Assembly: GCA_964035015.1 (NCBI GenBank)
Contig: OZ035999.1
Coordinates: forward strand, 1,859,627 to 1,923,626
Direction: 5' to 3'
Source of the DNA: Corallium rubrum
Lineage: Eukaryota > Cnidaria > Anthozoa > Scleralcyonacea > Coralliidae
Length of the DNA stretch: 64,000 nt
The position numbers were made by a program, and so were the translations under genes. The notes beneath the pieces were generated by a model. That model had not been told where the DNA came from, did no database searches, and worked only from the letters and a program-made list of their open reading frames with translations. This document shows, in pieces, positions 1-48,650 of the stretch. Positions within the stretch are counted from its first letter, which is position 1; each line of letters begins with the position of its first letter.

Positions 1-32
1 CCTAGGAATAACAATATTTTTTCCAACACCAA

Positions 33-545
33 ATGTCAATTACACTAGCACATCTATTAAAGTTAATTTTGAGCACATTACCACATGAATGTGAGCACAT
101 TCCTATGAATGTGATATACGGTGTTGAAGACCTGGACGAGAAACTAGATTTGTTTAACACTATTTTCTCTGATTGTCTGGAGAGACATGCTCCGATTAAG
201 CGTGTTAAGATCACCCGTCCTCCCGCTCCATGGTTGAAGGATGAGAATATCAAGGATTTACAAGCCCAGCGAGACAAATTGCGCCACGAAACCCGTAATA
301 CCAGCGACCCCCAAACCTGGAATGCTTACCGCGAATCAAGAAACCTCTTGAAATCGAAGATCAAGAAAGCAAAAAGAAATTTTATGCAGCGCGCCTTATC
401 AAAACGAAATTCCAAAGCAGTATGGCAAGTTATTCATCGTGTTCTGAAGCCAAACCCACAACCACTAAGACAAAATCCAGAGAGTCTTAATTCCTATTTT
501 GCCAACAGGTTGTATAACGTGAGGTTTCTCATTCGGGGATTTTAG
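33..545 (+). pseudogene. LINE ORF2 linker fragment, 170-codon open frame, repeated in every unit
   Basis: This is the first of 25 copies; the others start at 33+604n up to 7885 and at 8490+604n up to 14530. Residues from about 30 resemble the stretch between the endonuclease and reverse transcriptase domains of CR1/L2-like LINEs, with landmarks such as HAPIKRVKITRPPAPWL and a basic KSKIKKAKRNFMQRAL segment. No endonuclease or reverse transcriptase catalytic motif is present. The LINE-like frame ends at NSYFAN; the last residues and the stop come from the 97-bp linker. The copy at 7885-8343 is frameshifted by an extra A and has a different C-terminus. The open frame is probably a by-product of homology, not proof of a protein. 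Confidence 0.75.
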
Positions 546-604
546 ATATATACGTATAGGTTGTACAAAATAATTTAAGCAAAAGCTTTTTTCTTAATTT
601 AGTG
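508..604 (+). other. 97-bp non-LINE linker of each satellite unit
   Basis: The linker begins where the array leaves LINE homology (after GCCAACA) and ends at the next CCTAGG. It starts GGTTGTATAACG and ends with a pyrimidine-rich tract followed by TTTAG, so it superficially resembles a short GT-AG intron. Joining across it does not keep the frame open: a stop follows at once in the next unit. The origin of this sequence is unknown to me. The same linker recurs 25 times, the last at 15005-15101. Confidence 0.8.
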
Positions 605-3600
605 CCTAGGAATAACAATATTTTTTCCAACACCAAATGTCAATTACACTAGCACATCTATTAAAGTTAATTTTGAGCACATTACCACATGAATGTGAGC
701 ACATTCCTATGAATGTGATATACGGTGTTGAAGACCTGGACGAGAAACTAGATTTGTTTAACACTATTTTCTCTGATTGTCTGGAGAGACATGCTCCGAT
801 TAAGCGTGTTAAGATCACCCGTCCTCCCGCTCCATGGTTGAAGGATGAGAATATCAAGGATTTACAAGCCCAGCGAGACAAATTGCGCCACGAAACCCGT
901 AATACCAGCGACCCCCAAACCTGGAATGCTTACCGCGAATCAAGAAACCTCTTGAAATCGAAGATCAAGAAAGCAAAAAGAAATTTTATGCAGCGCGCCT
1001 TATCAAAACGAAATTCCAAAGCAGTATGGCAAGTTATTCATCGTGTTCTGAAGCCAAACCCACAACCACTAAGACAAAATCCAGAGAGTCTTAATTCCTA
1101 TTTTGCCAACAGGTTGTATAACGTGAGGTTTCTCATTCGGGGATTTTAGATATATACGTATAGGTTGTACAAAATAATTTAAGCAAAAGCTTTTTTCTTA
1201 ATTTAGTGCCTAGGAATAACAATATTTTTTCCAACACCAAATGTCAATTACACTAGCACATCTATTAAAGTTAATTTTGAGCACATTACCACATGAATGT
1301 GAGCACATTCCTATGAATGTGATATACGGTGTTGAAGACCTGGACGAGAAACTAGATTTGTTTAACACTATTTTCTCTGATTGTCTGGAGAGACATGCTC
1401 CGATTAAGCGTGTTAAGATCACCCGTCCTCCCGCTCCATGGTTGAAGGATGAGAATATCAAGGATTTACAAGCCCAGCGAGACAAATTGCGCCACGAAAC
1501 CCGTAATACCAGCGACCCCCAAACCTGGAATGCTTACCGCGAATCAAGAAACCTCTTGAAATCGAAGATCAAGAAAGCAAAAAGAAATTTTATGCAGCGC
1601 GCCTTATCAAAACGAAATTCCAAAGCAGTATGGCAAGTTATTCATCGTGTTCTGAAGCCAAACCCACAACCACTAAGACAAAATCCAGAGAGTCTTAATT
1701 CCTATTTTGCCAACAGGTTGTATAACGTGAGGTTTCTCATTCGGGGATTTTAGATATATACGTATAGGTTGTACAAAATAATTTAAGCAAAAGCTTTTTT
1801 CTTAATTTAGTGCCTAGGAATAACAATATTTTTTCCAACACCAAATGTCAATTACACTAGCACATCTATTAAAGTTAATTTTGAGCACATTACCACATGA
1901 ATGTGAGCACATTCCTATGAATGTGATATACGGTGTTGAAGACCTGGACGAGAAACTAGATTTGTTTAACACTATTTTCTCTGATTGTCTGGAGAGACAT
2001 GCTCCGATTAAGCGTGTTAAGATCACCCGTCCTCCCGCTCCATGGTTGAAGGATGAGAATATCAAGGATTTACAAGCCCAGCGAGACAAATTGCGCCACG
2101 AAACCCGTAATACCAGCGACCCCCAAACCTGGAATGCTTACCGCGAATCAAGAAACCTCTTGAAATCGAAGATCAAGAAAGCAAAAAGAAATTTTATGCA
2201 GCGCGCCTTATCAAAACGAAATTCCAAAGCAGTATGGCAAGTTATTCATCGTGTTCTGAAGCCAAACCCACAACCACTAAGACAAAATCCAGAGAGTCTT
2301 AATTCCTATTTTGCCAACAGGTTGTATAACGTGAGGTTTCTCATTCGGGGATTTTAGATATATACGTATAGGTTGTACAAAATAATTTAAGCAAAAGCTT
2401 TTTTCTTAATTTAGTGCCTAGGAATAACAATATTTTTTCCAACACCAAATGTCAATTACACTAGCACATCTATTAAAGTTAATTTTGAGCACATTACCAC
2501 ATGAATGTGAGCACATTCCTATGAATGTGATATACGGTGTTGAAGACCTGGACGAGAAACTAGATTTGTTTAACACTATTTTCTCTGATTGTCTGGAGAG
2601 ACATGCTCCGATTAAGCGTGTTAAGATCACCCGTCCTCCCGCTCCATGGTTGAAGGATGAGAATATCAAGGATTTACAAGCCCAGCGAGACAAATTGCGC
2701 CACGAAACCCGTAATACCAGCGACCCCCAAACCTGGAATGCTTACCGCGAATCAAGAAACCTCTTGAAATCGAAGATCAAGAAAGCAAAAAGAAATTTTA
2801 TGCAGCGCGCCTTATCAAAACGAAATTCCAAAGCAGTATGGCAAGTTATTCATCGTGTTCTGAAGCCAAACCCACAACCACTAAGACAAAATCCAGAGAG
2901 TCTTAATTCCTATTTTGCCAACAGGTTGTATAACGTGAGGTTTCTCATTCGGGGATTTTAGATATATACGTATAGGTTGTACAAAATAATTTAAGCAAAA
3001 GCTTTTTTCTTAATTTAGTGCCTAGGAATAACAATATTTTTTCCAACACCAAATGTCAATTACACTAGCACATCTATTAAAGTTAATTTTGAGCACATTA
3101 CCACATGAATGTGAGCACATTCCTATGAATGTGATATACGGTGTTGAAGACCTGGACGAGAAACTAGATTTGTTTAACACTATTTTCTCTGATTGTCTGG
3201 AGAGACATGCTCCGATTAAGCGTGTTAAGATCACCCGTCCTCCCGCTCCATGGTTGAAGGATGAGAATATCAAGGATTTACAAGCCCAGCGAGACAAATT
3301 GCGCCACGAAACCCGTAATACCAGCGACCCCCAAACCTGGAATGCTTACCGCGAATCAAGAAACCTCTTGAAATCGAAGATCAAGAAAGCAAAAAGAAAT
3401 TTTATGCAGCGCGCCTTATCAAAACGAAATTCCAAAGCAGTATGGCAAGTTATTCATCGTGTTCTGAAGCCAAACCCACAACCACTAAGACAAAATCCAG
3501 AGAGTCTTAATTCCTATTTTGCCAACAGGTTGTATAACGTGAGGTTTCTCATTCGGGGATTTTAGATATATACGTATAGGTTGTACAAAATAATTTAAGC

Positions 3601-6600
3601 AAAAGCTTTTTTCTTAATTTAGTGCCTAGGAATAACAATATTTTTTCCAACACCAAATGTCAATTACACTAGCACATCTATTAAAGTTAATTTTGAGCAC
3701 ATTACCACATGAATGTGAGCACATTCCTATGAATGTGATATACGGTGTTGAAGACCTGGACGAGAAACTAGATTTGTTTAACACTATTTTCTCTGATTGT
3801 CTGGAGAGACATGCTCCGATTAAGCGTGTTAAGATCACCCGTCCTCCCGCTCCATGGTTGAAGGATGAGAATATCAAGGATTTACAAGCCCAGCGAGACA
3901 AATTGCGCCACGAAACCCGTAATACCAGCGACCCCCAAACCTGGAATGCTTACCGCGAATCAAGAAACCTCTTGAAATCGAAGATCAAGAAAGCAAAAAG
4001 AAATTTTATGCAGCGCGCCTTATCAAAACGAAATTCCAAAGCAGTATGGCAAGTTATTCATCGTGTTCTGAAGCCAAACCCACAACCACTAAGACAAAAT
4101 CCAGAGAGTCTTAATTCCTATTTTGCCAACAGGTTGTATAACGTGAGGTTTCTCATTCGGGGATTTTAGATATATACGTATAGGTTGTACAAAATAATTT
4201 AAGTAAAAGCTTTTTTCTTAATTTAGTGCCTAGGAATAACAATATTTTTTCCAACACCAAATGTCAATTACACTAGCACATCTATTAAAGTTAATTTTGA
4301 GCACATTACCACATGAATGTGAGCACATTCCTATGAATGTGATATACGGTGTTGAAGACCTGGACGAGAAACTAGATTTGTTTAACACTATTTTCTCTGA
4401 TTGTCTGGAGAGACATGCTCCGATTAAGCGTGTTAAGATCACCCGTCCTCCCGCTCCATGGTTGAAGGATGAGAATATCAAGGATTTACAAGCCCAGCGA
4501 GACAAATTGCGCCACGAAACCCGTAATACCAGCGACCCCCAAACCTGGAATGCTTACCGCGAATCAAGAAACCTCTTGAAATCGAAGATCAAGAAAGCAA
4601 AAAGAAATTTTATGCAGCGCGCCTTATCAAAACGAAATTCCAAAGCAGTATGGCAAGTTATTCATCGTGTTCTGAAGCCAAACCCACAACCACTAAGACA
4701 AAATCCAGAGAGTCTTAATTCCTATTTTGCCAACAGGTTGTATAACGTGAGGTTTCTCATTCGGGGATTTTAGATATATACGTATAGGTTGTACAAAATA
4801 ATTTAAGCAAAAGCTTTTTTCTTAATTTAGTGCCTAGGAATAACAATATTTTTTCCAACACCAAATGTCAATTACACTAGCACATCTATTAAAGTTAATT
4901 TTGAGCACATTACCACATGAATGTGAGCACATTCCTATGAATGTGATATACGGTGTTGAAGACCTGGACGAGAAACTAGATTTGTTTAACACTATTTTCT
5001 CTGATTGTCTGGAGAGACATGCTCCGATTAAGCGTGTTAAGATCACCCGTCCTCCCGCTCCATGGTTGAAGGATGAGAATATCAAGGATTTACAAGCCCA
5101 GCGAGACAAATTGCGCCACGAAACCCGTAATACCAGCGACCCCCAAACCTGGAATGCTTACCGCGAATCAAGAAACCTCTTGAAATCGAAGATCAAGAAA
5201 GCAAAAAGAAATTTTATGCAGCGCGCCTTATCAAAACGAAATTCCAAAGCAGTATGGCAAGTTATTCATCGTGTTCTGAAGCCAAACCCACAACCACTAA
5301 GACAAAATCCAGAGAGTCTTAATTCCTATTTTGCCAACAGGTTGTATAACGTGAGGTTTCTCATTCGGGGATTTTAGATATATACGTATAGGTTGTACAA
5401 AATAATTTAAGCAAAAGCTTTTTTCTTAATTTAGTGCCTAGGAATAACAATATTTTTTCCAACACCAAATGTCAATTACACTAGCACATCTATTAAAGTT
5501 AATTTTGAGCACATTACCACATGAATGTGAGCACATTCCTATGAATGTGATATACGGTGTTGAAGACCTGGACGAGAAACTAGATTTGTTTAACACTATT
5601 TTCTCTGATTGTCTGGAGAGACATGCTCCGATTAAGCGTGTTAAGATCACCCGTCCTCCCGCTCCATGGTTGAAGGATGAGAATATCAAGGATTTACAAG
5701 CCCAGCGAGACAAATTGCGCCACGAAACCCGTAATACCAGCGACCCCCAAACCTGGAATGCTTACCGCGAATCAAGAAACCTCTTGAAATCGAAGATCAA
5801 GAAAGCAAAAAGAAATTTTATGCAGCGCGCCTTATCAAAACGAAATTCCAAAGCAGTATGGCAAGTTATTCATCGTGTTCTGAAGCCAAACCCACAACCA
5901 CTAAGACAAAATCCAGAGAGTCTTAATTCCTATTTTGCCAACAGGTTGTATAACGTGAGGTTTCTCATTCGGGGATTTTAGATATATACGTATAGGTTGT
6001 ACAAAATAATTTAAGCAAAAGCTTTTTTCTTAATTTAGTGCCTAGGAATAACAATATTTTTTCCAACACCAAATGTCAATTACACTAGCACATCTATTAA
6101 AGTTAATTTTGAGCACATTACCACATGAATGTGAGCACATTCCTATGAATGTGATATACGGTGTTGAAGACCTGGACGAGAAACTAGATTTGTTTAACAC
6201 TATTTTCTCTGATTGTCTGGAGAGACATGCTCCGATTAAGCGTGTTAAGATCACCCGTCCTCCCGCTCCATGGTTGAAGGATGAGAATATCAAGGATTTA
6301 CAAGCCCAGCGAGACAAATTGCGCCACGAAACCCGTAATACCAGCGACCCCCAAACCTGGAATGCTTACCGCGAATCAAGAAACCTCTTGAAATCGAAGA
6401 TCAAGAAAGCAAAAAGAAATTTTATGCAGCGCGCCTTATCAAAACGAAATTCCAAAGCAGTATGGCAAGTTATTCATCGTGTTCTGAAGCCAAACCCACA
6501 ACCACTAAGACAAAATCCAGAGAGTCTTAATTCCTATTTTGCCAACAGGTTGTATAACGTGAGGTTTCTCATTCGGGGATTTTAGATATATACGTATAGG

Positions 6601-7852
6601 TTGTACAAAATAATTTAAGCAAAAGCTTTTTTCTTAATTTAGTGCCTAGGAATAACAATATTTTTTCCAACACCAAATGTCAATTACACTAGCACATCTA
6701 TTAAAGTTAATTTTGAGCACATTACCACATGAATGTGAGCACATTCCTATGAATGTGATATACGGTGTTGAAGACCTGGACGAGAAACTAGATTTGTTTA
6801 ACACTATTTTCTCTGATTGTCTGGAGAGACATGCTCCGATTAAGCGTGTTAAGATCACCCGTCCTCCCGCTCCATGGTTGAAGGATGAGAATATCAAGGA
6901 TTTACAAGCCCAGCGAGACAAATTGCGCCACGAAACCCGTAATACCAGCGACCCCCAAACCTGGAATGCTTACCGCGAATCAAGAAACCTCTTGAAATCG
7001 AAGATCAAGAAAGCAAAAAGAAATTTTATGCAGCGCGCCTTATCAAAACGAAATTCCAAAGCAGTATGGCAAGTTATTCATCGTGTTCTGAAGCCAAACC
7101 CACAACCACTAAGACAAAATCCAGAGAGTCTTAATTCCTATTTTGCCAACAGGTTGTATAACGTGAGGTTTCTCATTCGGGGATTTTAGATATATACGTA
7201 TAGGTTGTACAAAATAATTTAAGCAAAAGCTTTTTTCTTAATTTAGTGCCTAGGAATAACAATATTTTTTCCAACACCAAATGTCAATTACACTAGCACA
7301 TCTATTAAAGTTAATTTTGAGCACATTACCACATGAATGTGAGCACATTCCTATGAATGTGATATACGGTGTTGAAGACCTGGACGAGAAACTAGATTTG
7401 TTTAACACTATTTTCTCTGATTGTCTGGAGAGACATGCTCCGATTAAGCGTGTTAAGATCACCCGTCCTCCCGCTCCATGGTTGAAGGATGAGAATATCA
7501 AGGATTTACAAGCCCAGCGAGACAAATTGCGCCACGAAACCCGTAATACCAGCGACCCCCAAACCTGGAATGCTTACCGCGAATCAAGAAACCTCTTGAA
7601 ATCGAAGATCAAGAAAGCAAAAAGAAATTTTATGCAGCGCGCCTTATCAAAACGAAATTCCAAAGCAGTATGGCAAGTTATTCATCGTGTTCTGAAGCCA
7701 AACCCACAACCACTAAGACAAAATCCAGAGAGTCTTAATTCCTATTTTGCCAACAGGTTGTATAACGTGAGGTTTCTCATTCGGGGATTTTAGATATATA
7801 CGTATAGGTTGTACAAAATAATTTAAGCAAAAGCTTTTTTCTTAATTTAGTG

Positions 7853-8457
7853 CCTAGGAATAACAATATTTTTTCCAACACCAAATGTCAATTACACTAG
7901 CACATCTATTAAAGTTAATTTTGAGCACATTACCACATGAATGTGAGCACATTCCTATGAATGTGATATACGGTGTTGAAGACCTGGACGAGAAACTAGA
8001 TTTGTTTAACACTATTTTCTCTGATTGTCTGGAGAGACATGCTCCGATTAAGCGTGTTAAGATCACCCGTCCTCCCGCTCCATGGTTGAAGGATGAGAAT
8101 ATCAAGGATTTACAAGCCCAGCGAGACAAATTGCGCCACGAAACCCGTAATACCAGCGACCCCCAAACCTGGAATGCTTACCGCGAATCAAGAAACCTCT
8201 TGAAATCGAAGATCAAGAAAGCAAAAAAGAAATTTTATGCAGCGCGCCTTATCAAAACGAAATTCCAAAGCAGTATGGCAAGTTATTCATCGTGTTCTGA
8301 AGCCAAACCCACAACCACTAAGACAAAATCCAGAGAGTCTTAATTCCTATTTTGCCAACAGGTTGTATAACGTGAGGTTTCTCATTCGGGGATTTTAGAT
8401 ATATACGTATAGGTTGTACAAAATAATTTAAGTAAAAGCTTTTTTCTTAATTTAGTG
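7853..8457 (+). repeat. Variant satellite unit 14 (605 bp, frameshifted)
   Basis: The run of A in the KKAKRN codons has six A here, five in the other units and four in the terminal LINE copy. The extra base shifts the frame, so the open frame ends at 8343. It is the only length variant in the array and a useful phase marker for assembly checking. Confidence 0.9.
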
Positions 8458-11400
8458 CCTAGGAATAACAATATTTTTTCCAACACCAAATGTCAATTAC
8501 ACTAGCACATCTATTAAAGTTAATTTTGAGCACATTACCACATGAATGTGAGCACATTCCTATGAATGTGATATACGGTGTTGAAGACCTGGACGAGAAA
8601 CTAGATTTGTTTAACACTATTTTCTCTGATTGTCTGGAGAGACATGCTCCGATTAAGCGTGTTAAGATCACCCGTCCTCCCGCTCCATGGTTGAAGGATG
8701 AGAATATCAAGGATTTACAAGCCCAGCGAGACAAATTGCGCCACGAAACCCGTAATACCAGCGACCCCCAAACCTGGAATGCTTACCGCGAATCAAGAAA
8801 CCTCTTGAAATCGAAGATCAAGAAAGCAAAAAGAAATTTTATGCAGCGCGCCTTATCAAAACGAAATTCCAAAGCAGTATGGCAAGTTATTCATCGTGTT
8901 CTGAAGCCAAACCCACAACCACTAAGACAAAATCCAGAGAGTCTTAATTCCTATTTTGCCAACAGGTTGTATAACGTGAGGTTTCTCATTCGGGGATTTT
9001 AGATATATACGTATAGGTTGTACAAAATAATTTAAGCAAAAGCTTTTTTCTTAATTTAGTGCCTAGGAATAACAATATTTTTTCCAACACCAAATGTCAA
9101 TTACACTAGCACATCTATTAAAGTTAATTTTGAGCACATTACCACATGAATGTGAGCACATTCCTATGAATGTGATATACGGTGTTGAAGACCTGGACGA
9201 GAAACTAGATTTGTTTAACACTATTTTCTCTGATTGTCTGGAGAGACATGCTCCGATTAAGCGTGTTAAGATCACCCGTCCTCCCGCTCCATGGTTGAAG
9301 GATGAGAATATCAAGGATTTACAAGCCCAGCGAGACAAATTGCGCCACGAAACCCGTAATACCAGCGACCCCCAAACCTGGAATGCTTACCGCGAATCAA
9401 GAAACCTCTTGAAATCGAAGATCAAGAAAGCAAAAAGAAATTTTATGCAGCGCGCCTTATCAAAACGAAATTCCAAAGCAGTATGGCAAGTTATTCATCG
9501 TGTTCTGAAGCCAAACCCACAACCACTAAGACAAAATCCAGAGAGTCTTAATTCCTATTTTGCCAACAGGTTGTATAACGTGAGGTTTCTCATTCGGGGA
9601 TTTTAGATATATACGTATAGGTTGTACAAAATAATTTAAGCAAAAGCTTTTTTCTTAATTTAGTGCCTAGGAATAACAATATTTTTTCCAACACCAAATG
9701 TCAATTACACTAGCACATCTATTAAAGTTAATTTTGAGCACATTACCACATGAATGTGAGCACATTCCTATGAATGTGATATACGGTGTTGAAGACCTGG
9801 ACGAGAAACTAGATTTGTTTAACACTATTTTCTCTGATTGTCTGGAGAGACATGCTCCGATTAAGCGTGTTAAGATCACCCGTCCTCCCGCTCCATGGTT
9901 GAAGGATGAGAATATCAAGGATTTACAAGCCCAGCGAGACAAATTGCGCCACGAAACCCGTAATACCAGCGACCCCCAAACCTGGAATGCTTACCGCGAA
10001 TCAAGAAACCTCTTGAAATCGAAGATCAAGAAAGCAAAAAGAAATTTTATGCAGCGCGCCTTATCAAAACGAAATTCCAAAGCAGTATGGCAAGTTATTC
10101 ATCGTGTTCTGAAGCCAAACCCACAACCACTAAGACAAAATCCAGAGAGTCTTAATTCCTATTTTGCCAACAGGTTGTATAACGTGAGGTTTCTCATTCG
10201 GGGATTTTAGATATATACGTATAGGTTGTACAAAATAATTTAAGCAAAAGCTTTTTTCTTAATTTAGTGCCTAGGAATAACAATATTTTTTCCAACACCA
10301 AATGTCAATTACACTAGCACATCTATTAAAGTTAATTTTGAGCACATTACCACATGAATGTGAGCACATTCCTATGAATGTGATATACGGTGTTGAAGAC
10401 CTGGACGAGAAACTAGATTTGTTTAACACTATTTTCTCTGATTGTCTGGAGAGACATGCTCCGATTAAGCGTGTTAAGATCACCCGTCCTCCCGCTCCAT
10501 GGTTGAAGGATGAGAATATCAAGGATTTACAAGCCCAGCGAGACAAATTGCGCCACGAAACCCGTAATACCAGCGACCCCCAAACCTGGAATGCTTACCG
10601 CGAATCAAGAAACCTCTTGAAATCGAAGATCAAGAAAGCAAAAAGAAATTTTATGCAGCGCGCCTTATCAAAACGAAATTCCAAAGCAGTATGGCAAGTT
10701 ATTCATCGTGTTCTGAAGCCAAACCCACAACCACTAAGACAAAATCCAGAGAGTCTTAATTCCTATTTTGCCAACAGGTTGTATAACGTGAGGTTTCTCA
10801 TTCGGGGATTTTAGATATATACGTATAGGTTGTACAAAATAATTTAAGTAAAAGCTTTTTTCTTAATTTAGTGCCTAGGAATAACAATATTTTTTCCAAC
10901 ACCAAATGTCAATTACACTAGCACATCTATTAAAGTTAATTTTGAGCACATTACCACATGAATGTGAGCACATTCCTATGAATGTGATATACGGTGTTGA
11001 AGACCTGGACGAGAAACTAGATTTGTTTAACACTATTTTCTCTGATTGTCTGGAGAGACATGCTCCGATTAAGCGTGTTAAGATCACCCGTCCTCCCGCT
11101 CCATGGTTGAAGGATGAGAATATCAAGGATTTACAAGCCCAGCGAGACAAATTGCGCCACGAAACCCGTAATACCAGCGACCCCCAAACCTGGAATGCTT
11201 ACCGCGAATCAAGAAACCTCTTGAAATCGAAGATCAAGAAAGCAAAAAGAAATTTTATGCAGCGCGCCTTATCAAAACGAAATTCCAAAGCAGTATGGCA
11301 AGTTATTCATCGTGTTCTGAAGCCAAACCCACAACCACTAAGACAAAATCCAGAGAGTCTTAATTCCTATTTTGCCAACAGGTTGTATAACGTGAGGTTT

Positions 11401-14400
11401 CTCATTCGGGGATTTTAGATATATACGTATAGGTTGTACAAAATAATTTAAGCAAAAGCTTTTTTCTTAATTTAGTGCCTAGGAATAACAATATTTTTTC
11501 CAACACCAAATGTCAATTACACTAGCACATCTATTAAAGTTAATTTTGAGCACATTACCACATGAATGTGAGCACATTCCTATGAATGTGATATACGGTG
11601 TTGAAGACCTGGACGAGAAACTAGATTTGTTTAACACTATTTTCTCTGATTGTCTGGAGAGACATGCTCCGATTAAGCGTGTTAAGATCACCCGTCCTCC
11701 CGCTCCATGGTTGAAGGATGAGAATATCAAGGATTTACAAGCCCAGCGAGACAAATTGCGCCACGAAACCCGTAATACCAGCGACCCCCAAACCTGGAAT
11801 GCTTACCGCGAATCAAGAAACCTCTTGAAATCGAAGATCAAGAAAGCAAAAAGAAATTTTATGCAGCGCGCCTTATCAAAACGAAATTCCAAAGCAGTAT
11901 GGCAAGTTATTCATCGTGTTCTGAAGCCAAACCCACAACCACTAAGACAAAATCCAGAGAGTCTTAATTCCTATTTTGCCAACAGGTTGTATAACGTGAG
12001 GTTTCTCATTCGGGGATTTTAGATATATACGTATAGGTTGTACAAAATAATTTAAGCAAAAGCTTTTTTCTTAATTTAGTGCCTAGGAATAACAATATTT
12101 TTTCCAACACCAAATGTCAATTACACTAGCACATCTATTAAAGTTAATTTTGAGCACATTACCACATGAATGTGAGCACATTCCTATGAATGTGATATAC
12201 GGTGTTGAAGACCTGGACGAGAAACTAGATTTGTTTAACACTATTTTCTCTGATTGTCTGGAGAGACATGCTCCGATTAAGCGTGTTAAGATCACCCGTC
12301 CTCCCGCTCCATGGTTGAAGGATGAGAATATCAAGGATTTACAAGCCCAGCGAGACAAATTGCGCCACGAAACCCGTAATACCAGCGACCCCCAAACCTG
12401 GAATGCTTACCGCGAATCAAGAAACCTCTTGAAATCGAAGATCAAGAAAGCAAAAAGAAATTTTATGCAGCGCGCCTTATCAAAACGAAATTCCAAAGCA
12501 GTATGGCAAGTTATTCATCGTGTTCTGAAGCCAAACCCACAACCACTAAGACAAAATCCAGAGAGTCTTAATTCCTATTTTGCCAACAGGTTGTATAACG
12601 TGAGGTTTCTCATTCGGGGATTTTAGATATATACGTATAGGTTGTACAAAATAATTTAAGCAAAAGCTTTTTTCTTAATTTAGTGCCTAGGAATAACAAT
12701 ATTTTTTCCAACACCAAATGTCAATTACACTAGCACATCTATTAAAGTTAATTTTGAGCACATTACCACATGAATGTGAGCACATTCCTATGAATGTGAT
12801 ATACGGTGTTGAAGACCTGGACGAGAAACTAGATTTGTTTAACACTATTTTCTCTGATTGTCTGGAGAGACATGCTCCGATTAAGCGTGTTAAGATCACC
12901 CGTCCTCCCGCTCCATGGTTGAAGGATGAGAATATCAAGGATTTACAAGCCCAGCGAGACAAATTGCGCCACGAAACCCGTAATACCAGCGACCCCCAAA
13001 CCTGGAATGCTTACCGCGAATCAAGAAACCTCTTGAAATCGAAGATCAAGAAAGCAAAAAGAAATTTTATGCAGCGCGCCTTATCAAAACGAAATTCCAA
13101 AGCAGTATGGCAAGTTATTCATCGTGTTCTGAAGCCAAACCCACAACCACTAAGACAAAATCCAGAGAGTCTTAATTCCTATTTTGCCAACAGGTTGTAT
13201 AACGTGAGGTTTCTCATTCGGGGATTTTAGATATATACGTATAGGTTGTACAAAATAATTTAAGCAAAAGCTTTTTTCTTAATTTAGTGCCTAGGAATAA
13301 CAATATTTTTTCCAACACCAAATGTCAATTACACTAGCACATCTATTAAAGTTAATTTTGAGCACATTACCACATGAATGTGAGCACATTCCTATGAATG
13401 TGATATACGGTGTTGAAGACCTGGACGAGAAACTAGATTTGTTTAACACTATTTTCTCTGATTGTCTGGAGAGACATGCTCCGATTAAGCGTGTTAAGAT
13501 CACCCGTCCTCCCGCTCCATGGTTGAAGGATGAGAATATCAAGGATTTACAAGCCCAGCGAGACAAATTGCGCCACGAAACCCGTAATACCAGCGACCCC
13601 CAAACCTGGAATGCTTACCGCGAATCAAGAAACCTCTTGAAATCGAAGATCAAGAAAGCAAAAAGAAATTTTATGCAGCGCGCCTTATCAAAACGAAATT
13701 CCAAAGCAGTATGGCAAGTTATTCATCGTGTTCTGAAGCCAAACCCACAACCACTAAGACAAAATCCAGAGAGTCTTAATTCCTATTTTGCCAACAGGTT
13801 GTATAACGTGAGGTTTCTCATTCGGGGATTTTAGATATATACGTATAGGTTGTACAAAATAATTTAAGTAAAAGCTTTTTTCTTAATTTAGTGCCTAGGA
13901 ATAACAATATTTTTTCCAACACCAAATGTCAATTACACTAGCACATCTATTAAAGTTAATTTTGAGCACATTACCACATGAATGTGAGCACATTCCTATG
14001 AATGTGATATACGGTGTTGAAGACCTGGACGAGAAACTAGATTTGTTTAACACTATTTTCTCTGATTGTCTGGAGAGACATGCTCCGATTAAGCGTGTTA
14101 AGATCACCCGTCCTCCCGCTCCATGGTTGAAGGATGAGAATATCAAGGATTTACAAGCCCAGCGAGACAAATTGCGCCACGAAACCCGTAATACCAGCGA
14201 CCCCCAAACCTGGAATGCTTACCGCGAATCAAGAAACCTCTTGAAATCGAAGATCAAGAAAGCAAAAAGAAATTTTATGCAGCGCGCCTTATCAAAACGA
14301 AATTCCAAAGCAGTATGGCAAGTTATTCATCGTGTTCTGAAGCCAAACCCACAACCACTAAGACAAAATCCAGAGAGTCTTAATTCCTATTTTGCCAACA

Positions 14401-14497
14401 GGTTGTATAACGTGAGGTTTCTCATTCGGGGATTTTAGATATATACGTATAGGTTGTACAAAATAATTTAAGTAAAAGCTTTTTTCTTAATTTAGTG

Positions 14498-15101
14498 CCT
14501 AGGAATAACAATATTTTTTCCAACACCAAATGTCAATTACACTAGCACATCTATTAAAGTTAATTTTGAGCACATTACCACATGAATGTGAGCACATTCC
14601 TATGAATGTGATATACGGTGTTGAAGACCTGGACGAGAAACTAGATTTGTTTAACACTATTTTCTCTGATTGTCTGGAGAGACATGCTCCGATTAAGCGT
14701 GTTAAGATCACCCGTCCTCCCGCTCCATGGTTGAAGGATGAGAATATCAAGGATTTACAAGCCCAGCGAGACAAATTGCGCCACGAAACCCGTAATACCA
14801 GCGACCCCCAAACCTGGAATGCTTACCGCGAATCAAGAAACCTCTTGAAATCGAAGATCAAGAAAGCAAAAAGAAATTTTATGCAGCGCGCCTTATCAAA
14901 ACGAAATTCCAAAGCAGTATGGCAAGTTATTCATCGTGTTCTGAAGCCAAACCCACAACCACTAAGACAAAATCCAGAGAGTCTTAATTCCTATTTTGCC
15001 AACAGGTTGTATAACGTGAGGTTTCTCATTCAAGGATTTTAGATATATACGTATAGGTTGTACAAAATAATTTAAGCAAAAGCTTTTTTCTTAATTTAGT
15101 G
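14498..15101 (+). repeat. Variant satellite unit 25, next to the LINE
   Basis: The linker reads CATTCAAGGATTTT where other units read CATTCGGGGATTTT, changing Arg to Gln in the terminal residues of the open frame. An edge unit carrying private variants is expected when unequal exchange homogenises the inside of an array more than its edges. Confidence 0.85.
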
Positions 15102-15133
15102 CCTAGGAATAACAATATTTTTTCCAACACCAA

Positions 15134-15556
15134 ATGTCAATTACACTAGCACATCTATTAAAGTTAATTTTGAGCACTTACATTGTCAATACACATGAAT
15201 GTGAGCACATTCCTATGAATGTGATATACGGTGTTGAAGACCTGGACGAGAAACTAGATTTGTTTAACACTATTTTCTCTGATTGTCTGGAGAGACATGC
15301 TCCGATTAAGCGTGTTAAGATCACCCGTCCTCCCGCTCCATGGTTGAAGGATGAGAATATCAAGGATTTACAAGCCCAGCGAGACAAATTGCGCCACGAA
15401 ACCCGTAATACCAGCGACCCCCAAACCTGGAATGCTTACCGCGAATCAAGAAACCTCTTGAAATCGAAGATCAAGAAAGCAAAAGAAATTTTATGCAGCG
15501 CGCCTTATCAAAACGAAATTCCAAAGCAGTATGGCAAGTTATTCATCGTGTTCTGA
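15134..15556 (+). pseudogene. LINE ORF2 linker region, terminal copy, frameshifted
   Basis: This is the same reading frame as in the satellite units, with three extra residues from a 9-bp difference after LILST. It leaves the reverse transcriptase frame near 15484 because one A is missing from the AAAA run, so it ends in a foreign tail at 15556. With the base count of the array units the frame would run directly into the reverse transcriptase. The single copy that keeps the reverse transcriptase is therefore the one whose frame is broken upstream of it. Confidence 0.8.
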
Positions 15557-17286
15557 AGCCAAACCCACAACCACTAAGACAAAATCCAGAGAGTCTTAAT
15601 TCCTATTTTGCCAACATCGCTCATCGAACTGTAAATGCCACAACCAAGACAATTGAAGACTTACATGCCTTAATTGCTTCGCTACCAGAGTGTAACAACA
15701 ATCCATTTCTTCTGCGACCAGTTTCTTACAACGAAGTGCTTCGCGAAATTAAATCCCTTAGATCGGACTGTTCTACTGGGCACGATCAAATCCCTGTAAA
15801 GGTAATTAAACTAGTTGTTGAAGAAATCACTTCCCCTCTGACCCACATCATTAATTGCTGCATAGAACAGGAACACTTCCCTAAGGCGTGGAAAATTGCC
15901 CGCGTTTCTCCAATCCCCAAAGTCAATAACCCAGTAACGAACAATGACCTACGCGGAATATCCATCTTACCCACCTTATCTAAAGTTTATGAGAAACTAG
16001 TACTAAGACAAATGGTTGACTTCATTGAGTCCGAACACTTACTTCCTTCCCACATATCAAGCTTTCGCAAGGGCTATTCAACAACAACTGCGCTAATAGG
16101 CATTAGAGATGATATCATCAAAGCAATGAACCGAGGAGAAGTTGCGATCATGGTTTTTGCAGACTTTAGTAAAGCGTTTGATACGGTGCACTTTGATATT
16201 ATAATAAGGAAACTACACTCCATGGGATTCTCCACCCAATTTCTTCGCTGGATAATGAATTACCTAATAGGAAGACAACAATACGTTCAAATTGATGACA
16301 AGAAATCAGAAAAACTGAATACCAATTTCGGCGTGCCACAAGGTTCCATCCTGGGACCTGTTTTGTTTAATTTATATGTAGCAGATCTTGCTAACCGACT
16401 GGGTACAATGTGTAGTTGCCACCAATACGCTGATGATACAATAATCTATAACAGCGTCAAGCCAAGAGATCTGCAAGAGGGCGTAACACGGATTAATGAC
16501 TCTCTCAGAAATCTGGTCTGCTGGTCTGATGAATCTAAACTCGCGTTAAACAATGACAAGACAAAAGCGATGCTGGTAACGACCTCTCAAATGGCTAACT
16601 ACCATTCCATACGGACGCCAGGCTCTATCAACATCAACCTGGGCTTGGAGAACAACAAAAGTCTCGACGTGATGGATAATTACAAACTCTTAGGTGTCCA
16701 TATAAGCAACGATCTTCGTTGGAAGAAACACGTCAACGAAATTGTTTCATCATGTTATGCTTCCTTGGCAATTTTACGTAAATTGCGAAACATGGCGCCA
16801 TTCCACCTGAGGAAACAATTGGCCGAGACATTGATTCTAACAAAACTTGATTACTGTGATGTGGTATTCTATCCACTTCCTGCAAACCTCTTGAAGCGTC
16901 TTCAACGGGTCCAGTCTTCTGTCGCTTGTTTTGTAACGGGCAAGTTTTCTAAAGAAGCCTCTGTACTGAGCTTAGGCTGGCTACCGATGATAGAAAAACG
17001 TGATTGGCATCTGCTGACAACTGCGTTCAAGGCTCTGAATAACAACCGTTGGCCCGAATACGCAAAATTAAAACAATACAACCCTGGTAGAGCCGGTCTT
17101 CGGTCCTGTTCAAAGGATCTGTTGGAAGTCCCGAGTATTAGAGGAACCTTCCAGTACTCTGCAGCGAAGTGTTTTAACAGCTTACCACAAACTTTGAGAG
17201 CTGAGAAAAGCTTTAAAACGTTTTACATTGAGACCAAAGCACGACTTTTCGAACGGGCAAGGGAGAGAGTGGGGTTAGTAGATTAG
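15493..17286 (+). CDS. LINE reverse transcriptase
   Basis: Product of 597 codons from an internal Met; the true ORF2 would begin far upstream. It copies LINE RNA into DNA at a nicked target. Landmarks: motif A FADFSKAFD at residues 222-230 with catalytic Asp224, GVPQGSILGP at 280-289, YADD at 312-315 (catalytic Asp pair), then the LALNNDKTK region and a C-terminal LDYCDVVFYPLP segment. All catalytic residues are present and the frame is uninterrupted to the TAG at 17284, so this part is young or still constrained. An intact element would also need an apurinic-type endonuclease, absent here. The product is probably not made as a functional full-length protein. Confidence 0.85.
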   Translation: MQRALSKRNSKAVWQVIHRVLKPNPQPLRQNPESLNSYFANIAHRTVNATTKTIEDLHALIASLPECNNNPFLLRPVSYNEVLREIKSLRSDCSTGHDQIPVKVIKLVVEEITSPLTHIINCCIEQEHFPKAWKIARVSPIPKVNNPVTNNDLRGISILPTLSKVYEKLVLRQMVDFIESEHLLPSHISSFRKGYSTTTALIGIRDDIIKAMNRGEVAIMVFADFSKAFDTVHFDIIIRKLHSMGFSTQFLRWIMNYLIGRQQYVQIDDKKSEKLNTNFGVPQGSILGPVLFNLYVADLANRLGTMCSCHQYADDTIIYNSVKPRDLQEGVTRINDSLRNLVCWSDESKLALNNDKTKAMLVTTSQMANYHSIRTPGSININLGLENNKSLDVMDNYKLLGVHISNDLRWKKHVNEIVSSCYASLAILRKLRNMAPFHLRKQLAETLILTKLDYCDVVFYPLPANLLKRLQRVQSSVACFVTGKFSKEASVLSLGWLPMIEKRDWHLLTTAFKALNNNRWPEYAKLKQYNPGRAGLRSCSKDLLEVPSIRGTFQYSAAKCFNSLPQTLRAEKSFKTFYIETKARLFERARERVGLVD

Positions 17287-17545
17287 TGCATTTCGAGGAA
17301 AACGTATATTAGCCCTCAATTCTAAATCCACAACTTATAAATATTTTATGTTAAATTCGTATTTTCTATTTTTTTTTTTCTAACATTGTTTTAATTAGTT
17401 TATCTTGTATGTACATATATGTACATGTGTGTGTGTATATATGTATACTTAATATTGTAAATTTGTAAATTTGTAGATGAAGAGCCATGTACAATGGAAA
17501 GCTACAATAAATCCGTTATTATTATATTATTATTATTATTAATAG
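17287..17545 (+). other. LINE 3' untranslated region with ATT-repeat tail
   Basis: This AT-rich stretch follows the reverse transcriptase stop. It has a short TG/TA-repeat patch near 17409-17447, an AATAAA-like signal near 17505, and ends in ATT repeats. The next element's terminal repeat starts at 17541, so the LINE tail and the MITE abut. Confidence 0.65.
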
Positions 17546-17800
17546 TAAGACAACCAGAAGTCCGACTCGCGTCGGAACCTTTGAAGTTTATGTCCTCGCG
17601 CATGTCACCTCGCGCATCTTGATTCCTCGTCATCCTACGCAATCCTGGCAAGTTCCCCCGGCAGTTTTAACCTTTTGAAGGTTCAAACTGCCAGGGGAAC
17701 TTGCCAGGATTGCGGTCGGATGGCTAAAATATCGTGCATGCGCATTGAAGAAACGCGGACAAGTTTTCACGGGAGTCAAACTTCTGGTTGTCTTACTATT
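17541..17800. mobile_element. MITE, family 1 copy A (260 bp)
   Basis: Ends are perfect 21-bp inverted repeats beginning AATAGTAAGACAACC. A second, internal palindrome around 17640-17713 carries GGCAAGTTCCCC. No transposase is encoded. A second copy of the same length lies in the opposite orientation at 35585-35844. The flanking TA/ATT-rich sequence prevents a sure target-duplication call. Confidence 0.85.
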
Positions 17801-20081: not shown

Positions 20082-20791
20082 TATTACTTTCTTAATTGTT
20101 GGATATAACTTTTTGTACTTCAAAAAACATATTTAATAGCGACGATTACCTTTGTCTACGTATGTTTCCGACAGTCGTCTGACGAACATTATGACGGTAA
20201 TTTTGTTCAGGAAAAATAAATATGTATCAGACTATATTCTGGAATAAAAATGACATGAGCCGTAGCCCAATTTTAAGAATGAGGGGAATTAGACCGAACT
20301 CAACACGGAAGTCCAAAAGGGAAACCGAAACAACACTTAAGCGAGAGATTATACAGTCAGACTTATCTTTCTAAGTTTTAACAAAAGGTCCGCTATGCGT
20401 ACATGTATCTGCGCAAACCCACCACTGTGAGAATCATGTCAAGATCTTGTGTGATCTTGGAAAATCTTGTAAGATCTTAAGAAAAATCTTAAGATTTTTA
20501 CACGTAGATCTTATAAGATAATTAAAGAGAAAGTACACGTTCTCTGACCTTAATAATTTTTTATCATGACTCATCATGACTCACAAAAACTGTGGTAGAT
20601 CACACTCACAAGTTTACTATAAGTCACGTTAAAAATACTTAACCAGTTTATCAGCAATATCCCTGTCTCCGAAATGTTTTTGTGCAAAACTTTGTCGGAA
20701 ATATAAAATTTAACGGCTAACTGCTGGAAGATATATCCCAATGACCAATAATACGGCTACCGCGGGTCTAAATACCCCTGAATCGTCTGTT
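20082..20791. other. Intergenic sequence, nothing recognised
   Basis: This is AT-rich, with several overlapping AAGATCTT-like words near 20440-20515. I see no gene or clear element. Confidence 0.4.
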
Positions 20792-21717
20792 GACATGAGC
20801 GCAAATATCAAATTGCATTATTTACGCTATTTACTTGGCCTACGGTCAAACGCGGTCATATTTAAAGTAAATCAATCGTCTGTAGGTTTGTGCCATTTGG
20901 GAAACTTGCACGGTTAGATAGAGCATTAAATTCTGTACAACATATGTGAATTAGAACAAATCGTATAGAATAGCAACGGAGAAAAATATATCAGTTGAAC
21001 CGAGATGAGCGCTAGTATCAAATTGCATTATACGGCTATTTACTTGGCCTACGGTCAAACGCGGTCATATTTAAAGTAAATCAATCGTCTGTAGGTTTGT
21101 GCCATTTGGGAAACTTGCACGGTTAGATAGAGCGTTAAATTCTGTACAACATATGTGAATTAGAGAACACTGTATAGAATAACAACGGAGAAAAGGCTAT
21201 TTGAACTGACATGAGCGCAAATATCAAATTTCATTATTTACGCTATTTACTTGGCGCACGGTCAAACGCGGTCATATTTAAAGTAAATCAATCGTCTGTA
21301 AGTTTGTGCCATTTGGGAAACTTGCACGGTTAGATAGAGCGTTAAATTCTGTACAACATATGTGAATTAAAACTCAAATCGTATAGAATAGCAACGGAGA
21401 AAAATATATTTGAACTGAGATGAGCGCAAATATCAAATTGCATTATTATGCTATTTACTTGGCGTACGGTCAAACGCGGTCATATTTAAAGTAAACTGTA
21501 AATCAATCGTCTGTAGGTTTGTGCCATTTGGGAAACTTGCACGGTTAGATAGAGCGTTAAATTCTGTACAACATATGTGAATTAAAACTCAAATCGTATA
21601 GAATAGCAACGGAGAAAAATATATTTGAACTGAGATGAGCGCAAATATCAAATTGCATTATTATGCTATTTACTTGGCGTACGGTCAAACGCAATCATTT
21701 TAAAGTATACCTGAATC
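20792..21717. repeat. Satellite, ~4.4 copies of a ~206-215-bp unit
   Basis: Copies begin near 20792, 21002, 21208, 21417 and 21632 at GA(C/G)ATGAGCGC. Shared words include GGTCAAACGCGGTCAT and GGGAAACTTGCACGG. Copies differ by substitutions and short indels, so this array is older than the 604-bp one. It has no coding content. Confidence 0.9.
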
Positions 21718-22689: not shown

Positions 22690-23564
22690 TCATCCATATC
22701 TTGTAGTCACGTTTTGTTCAAGATTGTTTTGATTCTGTTGGCTGTGGTGTTCCACAGAGGGAAACTTTCCTGTTTCTGATGTGTCTTCTTCATTAAATAC
22801 GCTCGCTGATTCATCGTTGGCCATGTCTCTTGGACTTTCTTTTGTTTTTAAGAGATGTCGTCTGTTTCGTCGATATATACGACCATCGGGAGTTTTCACT
22901 AGGTAGGACTGTGGCGCCGTTTCATGTTGTGCAATGACAGTCACTGGTTTCCACTTTCCTTGTGATTGCATCCTTGCTGCATCTCCTTTCTGAAGGGGAG
23001 GTAAAACCCGCGAACCCACGTCGTAGGATCTCTTCTGGCTTTGTTGTCTGGATCGTAGGTCTGTAGCTGCGTTGGATTGAATCTCTGGCTGTAAGAGTGG
23101 TGTGGTGGTAGGCAGAAGACTCTTTAGTCTACGACTCATTAGGAGCTGGGCTGGAGATTTCTTTACACTGTCGAGAGGACTGTTCCGATATTCCAAAAGT
23201 GAGAGATATGGGTCTTGGTTACTTTCTTCGGCTTTCTTTAGAAGGTTTTTCACTGTTTGAACCGTTCTTTCCACTTGTCCGTTCGATTGAGGATAACCAG
23301 GGCTCGAAGTTGTATGATGAAATTCCCACGCTTTTGAAAAGTTGCTGAATTCAGTACTGGCAAATTGTGGACCATTGTCAGTCACAACCTCATCTGGTAT
23401 CCCGTGACGAGCAAAGATGGACTTTAGTGCAGTGACGGTTGAAGAACTCTTTAGACTGGAGAGCTTAGTGACTTCTGGGTACTTGGAATAATAATCGACA
23501 CAAAGAAGATAGTTGGCCTTCTTGAACTCAAACAGATCGGCACCGATTTTTGCCCATGGCCGTT
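22690..23564 (-). pseudogene. Gypsy integrase, catalytic core and C-terminal part
   Basis: It inserts the element cDNA into chromosomes. The frame is open from the insertion boundary at 23564 down to the stop at 22690. The DDE acids are visible: Asp in the GADLF segment, Asp in TDNGPQF, and Glu in NGQVERTV. A C-terminal region with SRVLPPLQKGD and a basic RRNRRHLL segment follows. The N-terminal zinc-finger part lies on the far side of the 972-bp insertion. Confidence 0.85.
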
Positions 23565-23568
23565 CCGG

Positions 23569-24540
23569 TGTCCCAGGAAATCCGTCCCACCGTAATATCG
23601 CCCTCCCGGGGGGCGAATTTCCTAGGAATATCGCCCCCCTTTAGGAATTTCGCCCTCCCCCTTTTAGTCGCAAAACATAAATCGCCCAAATTGGCAAACA
23701 TTTATATTGCCAACAACACATGCATTCTGGAAGCCAGTCGAGATAAAACTACTACGGCAACGTGTTTGAACACTAGGATTTTATGTCATATACAAAGAAC
23801 GTTTGCAAACGACGTCGGATCCCAAGAGTAATTTTCACGCCGTCGTGACTCTGTTGACAACGTGAAAAAGCATTTTCACGTTGCATAGACAACGCGGAAC
23901 CCGAGTCACTACAGAAGCCTTGGGAAAGTTTAACCTTACTTTCGCGACTAACATAGATTGAACAAGTGTTTTTCATCAAGAATTTAAGAACAGAATGAGT
24001 CCGTGCGATTATGAATGTATAAATACAACACTATTTAATACCACTCTTAAACTTCCTGCCGTAGCCGTAGTCCTTTGTCAGGATCTTAAAGTCCCTTCAG
24101 AATCGGAAGCACTTCTATCTTTCATAAGAGTACCCTGGTTCCAGAGGTAGAACTGTTATTTTTTGCGTCGCGGTATTGACCAGACAGGCTTTGCGATATG
24201 TCGATCGATCTGTTTAACGCCGTGACTTTAGCTGCTAGTTCGCCGCTGTACCAGCTTTTCCAACTTTCTATTGTCTATAACTTCACGGGGTGAATGGGAT
24301 TGTCTGACGATCCCTTGAATCTACCGAATCTAGCACTGCAGGTTATTTTTATATAGTCAACTAGTATCATTTTTATAAGATATTAAATTTACTAAACAAT
24401 GTTCTTGTCATGTTTTGAATTTAAATCGAAATCGAGAAGGGGGCGAAATTCCTAAAGGGGGGCGATATTCCTAGGAAATTCGTCCTCCCATGGGGAGGGA
24501 GGGGGGGCGAATTTACAGGGGGGGCGAATTTCCTGTGACA
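23569..24540. mobile_element. Non-autonomous DNA transposon, 972 bp, inserted in Gypsy integrase
   Basis: Ends are inverted repeats starting TGTCACAGGAAATTCG (one mismatch), followed by G/C-rich blocks with GGGGGGCGA words and CCTAGGAATATCGCCC. CCGG flanks both sides (23565-23568 and 24541-24544). Removing the element and one CCGG leaves the Gypsy frame continuous, which proves a clean insertion with a 4-bp target duplication. A TGTNR terminus plus 4-bp duplication matches Ginger-type transposons; the superfamily call is inference. No transposase is visible. Confidence 0.9.
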
Positions 24541-24544
24541 CCGG

Positions 24545-25360
24545 TATTTCATGGGGAATCAAAGGCTGCTTGGCATTGCTTTTCCTGTTTTCATTGCAGG
24601 TGGGACACCCTGAAACCATTTCTTCGATTTCTTTTCCCATTCTGGGCCAAAAGAGTATTTCCCGGGCTCTCTGCTTGCATTTGATGATTCCGAGATGAGC
24701 TTGATGTATTTCTCTTCAACATTTCACTTCTCAGGACTTTAGGAACGATAAGCCTTGCATGTTGTTTCTGAACAACAGTTGGTGCATATATGTAATTTCA
24801 TCTCGGTGTGACCAGAACTCTCTGACGTCTGAAACGACCTGGTTCTTTGCATTAGGCCATCCTTGAAGGACTGTGATCTTTAAGTGCTGTAAAGCAGGGT
24901 CTTGCTCTGTGGCATCTTGAAATTGTTGCAATTTTTCTGGGGACACTGGCAGATCAAGTTCCAAGAGGCTGACCTCTAATTCTTCATGAAGAAGATCTTC
25001 TTTCTCTTCATTTAAATATGCTCGGCTTAACGTATCAGGGAGGTACATTTCTTTGCCAGGTTTGTACGCGACTTCTAAGCTGTAACGTTGGAGCTGGAGC
25101 AACATTCTCTGTAATCGAAGTGGCGTCTGATGCAAAGGCTTTTTGAAAATAACCTCGAGGGGCTTGTGGTCAGTTTCAACCTTGGTCGTTTGCCCATAGA
25201 TGTACTGATGGAACTTGTTACAGCCATAGACTACAGCAAAGGAGTTCCTTTTCAATTTGTGCGTGCCTTTGGTGCGTACTCGCGAGAGCTCTTGATGCGA
25301 AGGCGATAGGCTGCTGATCTTGCAATAACACTGCTCCAAGGCCTTGTGCACTAGCATCAA
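24545..25360 (-). pseudogene. Gypsy RNase H and integrase zinc-finger region
   Basis: RNase H landmarks are FHQYIYGQTTKVETDHKPLE and PDTLSRAY. The integrase HHCC zinc finger is split between frames: a HQAHLGIIKCK segment lies near 24690 and CPTCNE near 24605. Frameshifts occur around 25245 (one extra T relative to the reverse transcriptase frame) and around 24700. The region ends at the 972-bp insertion. Confidence 0.8.
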
Positions 25361-26234
25361 CTGAGAGTGTTACCGGTTTGTTGACATTGTAGTACTTCAG
25401 CACTGGTGTAGAGGCCACTAAAGACTTTAACTCTGCAAAACTCTTCTTCTGGGGTTTTTCCCAATGCCACTGCGTCTTGCTTTCCAGGAGGATTCGCAGC
25501 GGTGCACTGATTTCTGACAAATTAGGAATGAATTTTGCTAAGTATTGGACCATGCCCATGAATCTCATGAGAGCTTGCTTATCGGCTGGCTCTGGCATCT
25601 CGTGAATGGCCCGTACCTTTTCAGGATCAGGCTTTAAACCATCAGCAGTAAGGAGGTGGCCCACATACGTTATCTGCGTACGCTGGGTCTTGCATTTGTC
25701 TCGATTTAGTTTTAAGTTCCTCTCTTGGCACCTGTCGAGAACAGTCTTCAAGCGATGGTTGTGCTGGCTGATAGTTTCTCCCCATACCAAAATATCATCG
25801 GCGATGCATTCAACTCCTTCGAGTCCTTCTAACAGTTCTGTCATAACTTTCTGGAAGACTTCTGGAGCAGAAGAAATGCCAAATGGGAGTCTCTTGAACC
25901 GGTATCGCCCAAATGGAGTATTAAAGGTGCACAATGTGGAACTGCTGTCATCGAGCTCAATTTGCCAGAAGCCTGAACTTGCATCGAGGGTGGAAAATAC
26001 CTGGGCATTTGGTAGTCGTGTCACAACTTCTTCAACAGTTGGCAGTGGATGGTGCTCCCGTCGGATTGCTCGATTTAAATCACGTGGATCGATACATATT
26101 CTCAGCTTGTGGGGCTTTATGACAGTTACCATGCTATTTACCCAACTCGCTGGCTCGGACTGTTTTTCAATCACTCCCAGATCTTTCATTCGTTGCAATT
26201 CTTGTAGGATTCTGGGTCGTAGTGCGACAGGCAC
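25218..26234 (-). pseudogene. Gypsy reverse transcriptase
   Basis: The open frame has 338 codons; its first codon is GTG, so the true frame begins upstream. Motif A is STLDASSGFW with catalytic Asp84, then LPFGISSAPEVF at 116-127, then ADDIL with the catalytic Asp pair near 146-147. The thumb and tether include YVGHLLTADGLKPDPEK. Catalytic residues are intact, but the frame is shifted at both ends, so a normal polyprotein cannot be made. Confidence 0.9.
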
Positions 26235-26472
26235 TTTTCTCGGTGGGTGAACAACAGGCTTTTATGTTGGGGTCCACTTCAATATGATGCTTTCCAGATG
26301 ACTTGATACAGCCAAGACCAGTAAATAGTTCTGGATATTGATCGAGAATGTCAGCACCGCTTTCACTTACGTTGGCAGATCGATCGATTGTCATAATGCG
26401 TTGTATTAGTCCCAATTCCAAACAGGTTTTACGGCCAGGGATTATTTTGTGGCCCGAGTAGCTGACCAATCT
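26167..26472 (-). pseudogene. Gypsy protease-reverse transcriptase linker
   Basis: Landmarks ELFTGLGCIKSSGKHHIEVD are typical of the segment before the reverse transcriptase. The frame departs near 26250-26260, where a single-base deletion separates it from the downstream polymerase frame. Upstream it meets the hAT insertion at 26480. Confidence 0.8.
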
Positions 26473-31305: not shown

Positions 31306-31315
31306 ATTGTTTATG

Positions 31316-41018: not shown

Positions 41019-41242
41019 ATAAAAATTTAAAAAATATAATTATATTTTATTAAATGATTTATTTTAACAGCAAAATTGCAATTTAATATTTACAAGTGTA
41101 CGTAGGTCACTATAAAAGTAGCGTGCAGCGTAGACAGTGTAGAAACAACAATCGAAATATAGTAAGGTTAGATACGCTGCCGAAACAGAAAACGTAGGAG
41201 TCTAACGTTTCGAGCGAAGGCCCTTCATCAGAGAGAAACGTC

Positions 41243-41512
41243 AAAGGCTACTTACGGGTTGTGAAACGTCAAAGGCCACTTACAGGTTGTGAAACGTCAA
41301 AGGCCACTTACAGGTTGTGAAACGTCAAAGGCCACTTACAGGTTGTGAAACGTCAAAGGCCACTTACGGGTTGTGAAACGTCAAAGGCCACTTACGGGTC
41401 ACTTAGGCCACTTACGGTCACTTACGGGTTATGAAACGTCAAAGGCCACTTACGAGTCACTTACGGGTCACTTAGGCCACTTACAGGTTGTGAAACGTCA
41501 AAGGCCACTTAC
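41243..41512. repeat. Minisatellite (~28-bp unit) carrying a splice-donor word
   Basis: Units read GAAACGTCAAAGGCCACTTA followed by C(A/G)GGTTGT; some are shortened to GGGTCACTTA forms. On the minus strand almost every unit contains CC-GTAAGTG or CT-GTAAGTG, a strong 5' splice-site match; I count about 12. The last unit runs into the true exon end at 41513. The repeat seems to have grown from the exon-intron border. Confidence 0.85.
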
Positions 41513-41756
41513 GGGTTGTGCACAGTTTCGTCAGTGTCTTTATATATTATAGGGAATTTGTTGGTATCTGAAAATTGAATGATGTACTGTACCTGGTGTT
41601 TTTCCCCCTTTTGATCTGAGTCAGGCAATACTGAAGATTTTTCATGCTATTTTCTTCACCCTCTTGTAGCACAATACTTGTACCACCATCAAGTTTTGAA
41701 GAAAAGGTAAACTTTCCATTCCAGCAAGTAATGTTATCCATTTTTTCATTGGTAAG
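41513..41756 (-). pseudogene. Exon module A, copy 4
   Basis: After a CTTTTAG acceptor the frame gives LTNEKMDNITCWNGKFTF, KLDGGTSIVLQEGEEN and IKRGKN, then is shifted by one base relative to copy 2 and stops at NSL. It ends at a GTAAGTGG donor that merges with the minisatellite. Confidence 0.5.
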
Positions 41757-48536: not shown

Positions 48537-48650
48537 CTGTATACTCGCTCCTCCAGACTGTGCAAAAGCTGTAATCTCGGGGCAGGGACACAAAAGATAT
48601 CCCAAGGGTGCACTGGCAGGGTACGGTGATGTTTCAGTTTTGAGCGTAAT

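Follow-up and report, generated by a model that had tools for sequence, protein, structure and literature searches.

The locus studied here raises the question of how a fragment of a retrotransposon becomes a tandem array. The window, i.e. the whole stretch of 64,000 nucleotides that was analysed (C12:1859627-1923626, in an assembly of 474 Mb and 312 contigs), opens with a block of near-identical repeats next to a LINE, and a sequence-only reading had seen in it a satellite recently born from that element. Our preferred explanation, to which we assign a probability of roughly 0.85, is a satellite-like array that arose in place from one LINE insertion, by a tandem duplication spanning the insertion junction and subsequent unequal exchange.

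Positions 1-15101 of the window (C12:1859627-1874727, plus strand) consist of 25 head-to-tail units, with starts at 1, 605 and so on up to 14498; 24 of them measure 604 bp and one measures 605 bp, in line with the 25 units of 604/605 bp of the sequence-only reading. Nineteen units are identical, four have one common substitution, and two others show two differences each. This tandem pattern is far beyond chance. The window edge cuts the array, whose extent was taken from the window together with 120 kb to its left (184 kb read in all). On the contig it spans C12:1827880-1874727, with about 32 kb to the left of the window; the left end falls inside a unit, and the right end is window position 15101. 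As assembled, the whole array comprises 61 complete units and a partial leftmost one, a count that rests on the assembly; unit starts number 62, the last one being that of the terminal LINE copy. Sixty of the complete units are uninterrupted, and one is split at unit position 233-235 by an insertion of 9,729 bp, without which the net array length is about 37.1 kb. The reference unit (605-1208, plus strand) is matched exactly by 44 of the 60 uninterrupted units. There are 11 distinct variant unit types, and among the 57 units with a length of exactly 604 bp the mean number of pairwise substitutions is 0.65.

The insertion itself (C12:1849526-1859254; L010/L009) is a DNA-transposon-like element with CACTC...GAGTG ends, a target duplication of 2-3 bp, and the repeats AACACACC/GGTGTGTT near its ends. 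No Pfam match exceeds the curated cut-off in the three longest of its four ORFs of at least 120 aa (the best is DUF7809, with 19.6 against 27 bits), so that a CACTA-like label draws on the ends of the element and is only a guess.

A genome search for the linker joined to LINE sequence, proposed in the sequence-only reading, was run with the exact 28-base junction. It returned 61 matches in 474 Mb, all at C12:1828042-1874647; the junction of the unit at 1829358 differs by one substitution, so that this unit falls outside these matches. The exact pattern was found at no other locus genome-wide, and for this pattern we reject the idea that the unit has spread elsewhere in the genome. The array thus shows two properties of satellites, namely long head-to-tail arrangement (61 complete units with a net length of about 37 kb) and homogenised units (44 of 60 uninterrupted ones identical); abundance at several loci, judged by the exact junction, was not found. 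Because the junction occurs at one locus only, we speak of a satellite-like array or an incipient satellite, not of an established satellite family.

To the right, the array leads straight into a LINE copy that bears a reverse transcriptase (RT), as had been noticed before: an ORF at window 15409-17286 matches RVT_1 with E=3.2e-34. This terminal copy occupies 15207-17541 (plus strand) and ends in a (TTA)n-like tail. It is preceded at 15102-15206 (plus strand) by its target flank and filler, whose end next to the LINE is an altered, derived stretch, and directly followed by a palindromic MITE-like element (17542-17800, plus strand), where the right-hand part of a segmental duplication starts (C12:1469542 onward). 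At least seven other LINE copies align to it, RT region included, over 2,332-2,343 bp with 98.5-99.3% identity; the description as the only polymerase-bearing copy therefore holds locally, but not genome-wide. Five substitutions over 2,335 bp (15591, 15741, 16723, 16922 and 16983) distinguish the terminal copy from all seven others. Its start at about 15207 is internal to each of these seven copies; hence it is 5'-truncated, and it combines this truncation with a simple-repeat 3' tail.

The frames of three of the seven copies were scanned with Pfam. Those of L017 (1053 aa) and L018 (1233 aa) contain Exo_endo_phos and RVT_1 above cut-off, that of L013 (781 aa) RVT_1 only. The parent family therefore encodes an endonuclease and an RT, and the assignment to the LINEs is made because of these domains. 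L017 additionally has a PHD match at 23.7 bits, just below the 24-bit cut-off; a PHD-EN-RT architecture is at most suggestive of a CR1-like LINE clade. Between the filled and the empty site there is no target-site duplication, and about one base was lost at the 3' end. Such duplications are often missing in some LINE clades.

According to the sequence-only reading, units share 507 bp with a LINE beginning at 15102 and contain a foreign 97-bp linker; both statements need revision. With the LINE starting at about 15207, the LINE part is confined to unit positions 97-507 (411 bp; 701-1111 in the reference unit, plus strand), which have at least seven matches elsewhere at 98.8-99.5% and a shorter one of 157 bp. 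The non-LINE part consists of 182 bp of pre-insertion target, namely the 97-bp linker (unit 508-604) followed by positions 1-85 of the next unit (1112-1293, plus strand), and of 11 bp of filler that precede the 5' end of the LINE (unit 86-96; 1294-1304, plus strand). The evidence comes from L012, a separate dispersed copy that contains the left flank of the array, 22 bp, the linker and unit 1-60 in one collinear run. Its identity is 89% in 183 aligned columns and 83-84% in 182, of which 26 are gaps; gaps make up most of the differences. About 30 further sites in the genome match the linker end and the unit start at 93-95%. Owing to the collinearity in L012, the linker has to be regarded as the continuation of a dispersed target sequence, and we reject its interpretation as foreign. 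At unit 507/508, LINE sequence ending in ...GCCAACA is joined to target ...GCCAGGTTG, with two bases, CA, common to both. The filler looks like LINE and target bases in alternation. Judged by these alignments, each unit spans the point at which the truncated 5' end of one LINE insertion meets the target DNA of that insertion.

The state of the target before the insertion can be approached through a paralogous segment at C12:1463683-1480101, 0.36-0.41 Mb away. It aligns with the DNA to the left of the array as well as with that to the right of the LINE, and is thus no chance match. There are five main blocks (1470 bp at 98.2%, 2314 bp at 98.3%, 897 bp at 98.1%, 4471 bp at 99.5% and 717 bp at 97.8%), with substitutions of about 0.35-1.0%; other blocks, partly tandem repeats, have lower identity (e.g. 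865 bp at 95.6%). At the relevant point the sequence of the paralog (L011, likewise on C12) is ...GAGCACATTACCACA GAATAGTAAGACAACC..., i.e. the left flank of the units is joined directly to the sequence after the LINE 3' tail. This junction, ATTACCACAGAATAGTAAGACAACC, occurs once in the paralog and is absent from the 184 kb read around the array. Since the paralog aligns on both sides and has neither LINE nor array at that point, we consider it a paralogous empty site. It also carries a private 3.9-kb insertion, and one of its internal segments is inverted; hence linker pieces match it in reverse, and it is no perfect stand-in for the ancestor. The segment between the inverted arms is flipped in the paralog (L011 ~4037-4353 versus C12:1827692-1827858) compared with both the array locus and L012, which suggests an inversion between inverted repeats.

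Other repeats are found further along the window. A second tandem array with a 209-bp unit (20791-21707; 4.4 copies, 90% matches) also occurs at C12:1472724-1473585 in the paralog and near C12:1742244, and a 28-bp minisatellite with derivatives, GAAACGTCAAAGGCCACTTACAGGTTGT, lies at 41235-41520. On the minus strand there are LTR-retrotransposon-like pieces with RT, RNase H and integrase core domains (22690-26261), a second RT-bearing stretch (30213-31310; RVT_1, E=1.6e-36) whose protein, compared by eye, is unlike that of the LINE at 15207, and an exon-like ORF that encodes a glutathione S-transferase C-terminal domain (48116-48688).

The relationship between the units and the terminal copy can be read from a few positions. 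At window 15591 (unit 482), all 60 uninterrupted units and the terminal copy have G, and all seven other LINE copies have T; hence the units descend from this very insertion, and the proposed young tandem array out of a retrotransposon insertion is supported in this respect. Units indeed resemble one another more than they resemble the terminal copy, with 97.6-97.7% identity including gaps over the 618-bp matches to the latter, and from this likeness it had been concluded that a rearranged variant unit was amplified. The polarity of the differences speaks against that conclusion. Near 15480 the terminal copy has a run of four As, a private 1-bp deletion. The run is five As long in all seven of the other LINE copies, in the split unit and in every uninterrupted unit (59 of 60) but one, which has six. 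Immediately 5' of the LINE, the flank of the empty site, GAGCACATTACCACA, is retained in the units, and the altered stretch of the terminal copy occurs once. The rightmost unit (14498-15101, plus strand) has a private GG>AA at unit 535-536, where L011 also has GG. At both indel differences the older state is thus found in the units; the terminal copy is derived, it is the edge that changed, and we reject the amplification of a rearranged variant.

Taken together, the alignments are best accounted for by an order in which a segmental duplication was followed by the LINE insertion, then by duplication and expansion, and finally by the insertion of the 9.7-kb element. The C12 segment was already present twice, at a distance of about 0.36-0.41 Mb, when a 5'-truncated LINE of the endonuclease and RT family entered one of them, probably by target-primed reverse transcription, leaving 11 bp of filler, no target-site duplication and a loss of about one target base. 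Next, 604 bp across the junction, made up of the 182-bp target part, the 11-bp filler and the first 411 bp of the truncated LINE, would have been tandemly duplicated between the breakpoints seen in the units, presumably at the 2-bp microhomology. Unequal exchange or conversion may then have expanded and homogenised this one array to about 61 units. As the sequence shows, edge units kept private changes, the 9.7-kb element landed inside, and the left edge lost the continuity between flank and linker. This missing continuity speaks against the simplest tandem duplication, which predicts it. At the left edge, 22 bp of flank and about 0.43 kb of unit are lost (about 0.45 kb in all), next to a local duplication of about 25 bp; hence both the loss and the local duplication have to be added to the model.

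Unequal exchange with poor homogenisation at the array ends predicts variant edge units. With three units per side, an edge size chosen post hoc, and the split unit counted as not variant, six of six edge units are variant versus 10 of 55 others (p=0.00014); with two, four, five or six per side p is 0.002-0.009, and with one per side 0.066. This excess of variants at the edges fits that prediction. Some variants are common to scattered units (580C>T in five units, 138/171 in three), and 580C>T is present in 5 of 25 uninterrupted units to the right of the 9.7-kb element and in 0 of 35 to its left, so the two blocks share variants unevenly.

The expansion step has a competitor of its own. A 604-bp circle could have been excised from the junction segment and copied by a rolling-circle process at the resulting break, rebuilding the array in one step; this alternative concerns the unequal exchange or conversion only. 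It would easily give 44 identical units out of 60, and it agrees with the abrupt join inside a unit at the left edge, where the flank stops just 22 bp away from where the left breakpoint of such a circle would be. At the right edge, however, the array continues past unit 507 into the remainder of this LINE without a break, which would need a homology-guided resolution, and the scattered units with common variants point to later exchange; we regard rolling-circle copying as unlikely. Somewhat speculative is the idea that retrotransposition itself seeded the satellite: the alternating bases of the filler suggest template switching during insertion, and the first junction-spanning duplication could stem from the same aberrant repair. 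If true, one LINE insertion would directly give birth to a satellite, but we give this proposal low odds.

Two further explanations were considered. An assembler that multiplied a few genomic units would account for their extreme identity, and the unit count does rest on the assembly; such an artefact is nevertheless very improbable in view of the 11 variant unit types, the mid-array insertion with its 2-3 bp target duplication, the absence of any N in the 184 kb read, and the different edges. The units could also be promoter-like monomers that aid element movement, like those at the 5' end of mouse L1, given that an RT-bearing LINE of the same orientation follows immediately on the 3' side of the array. 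Yet the LINE-derived portion of the unit comes from the interior of the element: all seven other copies continue 5' in common LINE sequence, over the whole 140 bp shown in six copies and about 80 bp in L015, and in L017 this part belongs to a single open frame, where it is flanked by endonuclease and RT. The terminal copy, moreover, is truncated and carries a private deletion. We therefore reject promoter monomers, whose probability we consider negligible. Under the in-place origin from one LINE insertion, the array appears to be a young by-product of that insertion, specific to this locus, and has no evident function.

Satellites derived from transposable elements (TEs) are often recognised by similarity to the element alone. 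In the double-insertion model of McGurk and Barbash (2018), two adjacent TE insertions reportedly supply the first tandem pair. The locus described here likewise starts from a TE insertion but, unlike that model, involves one insertion and a junction-spanning duplication; two adjacent element copies as a first dimer were not found, the monomer being composed of one LINE junction and target collinear with L012. Neither this array nor a monomer built from a LINE 5' junction was encountered in the portions of the open-access literature that our search covered, which does not establish their absence from print. The locus also makes a population test simple, by counting units per allele and looking for a two-unit intermediate.

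Satellites derived from LINE ORF2 are already known; it is the completeness of the record that is unusual here. Other copies, empty site, insertion junction, duplication breakpoint, parent copy, both edges and a later insertion are present in one assembly, and hence the order of events is readable. According to PMC9659126, the chicken HinfI/SCR1 satellite, derived from CR1, holds a partial ORF2 coding region of the LINE. The present array resembles it in having a LINE coding fragment, but, as far as that account goes, differs in its one near-identical locus, the attached parent insertion and the target DNA in the monomer. The same source lists PROsat of Phodopus and Pvc20 of Phoca as satellites with a LINE-1 ORF2 fragment (PMC9659126). 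For PROsat it gives a similarity of 88% over a small region, compared with 98.8-99.5% between our units and other LINE copies, for which the empty site is available as well. In squamate reptiles, the SINE-derived satellites described in PMC10702118 are tandem arrays of a retroelement part, with leading and trailing monomers distinct from the middle ones and with some units containing sequence of unknown origin. In contrast to those satellites, described there at many loci and from SINEs, the array reported here involves one locus, one LINE and a non-element part that is explained; this suggests that monomer parts "of unknown origin" in other satellites may be junctions between element and target.
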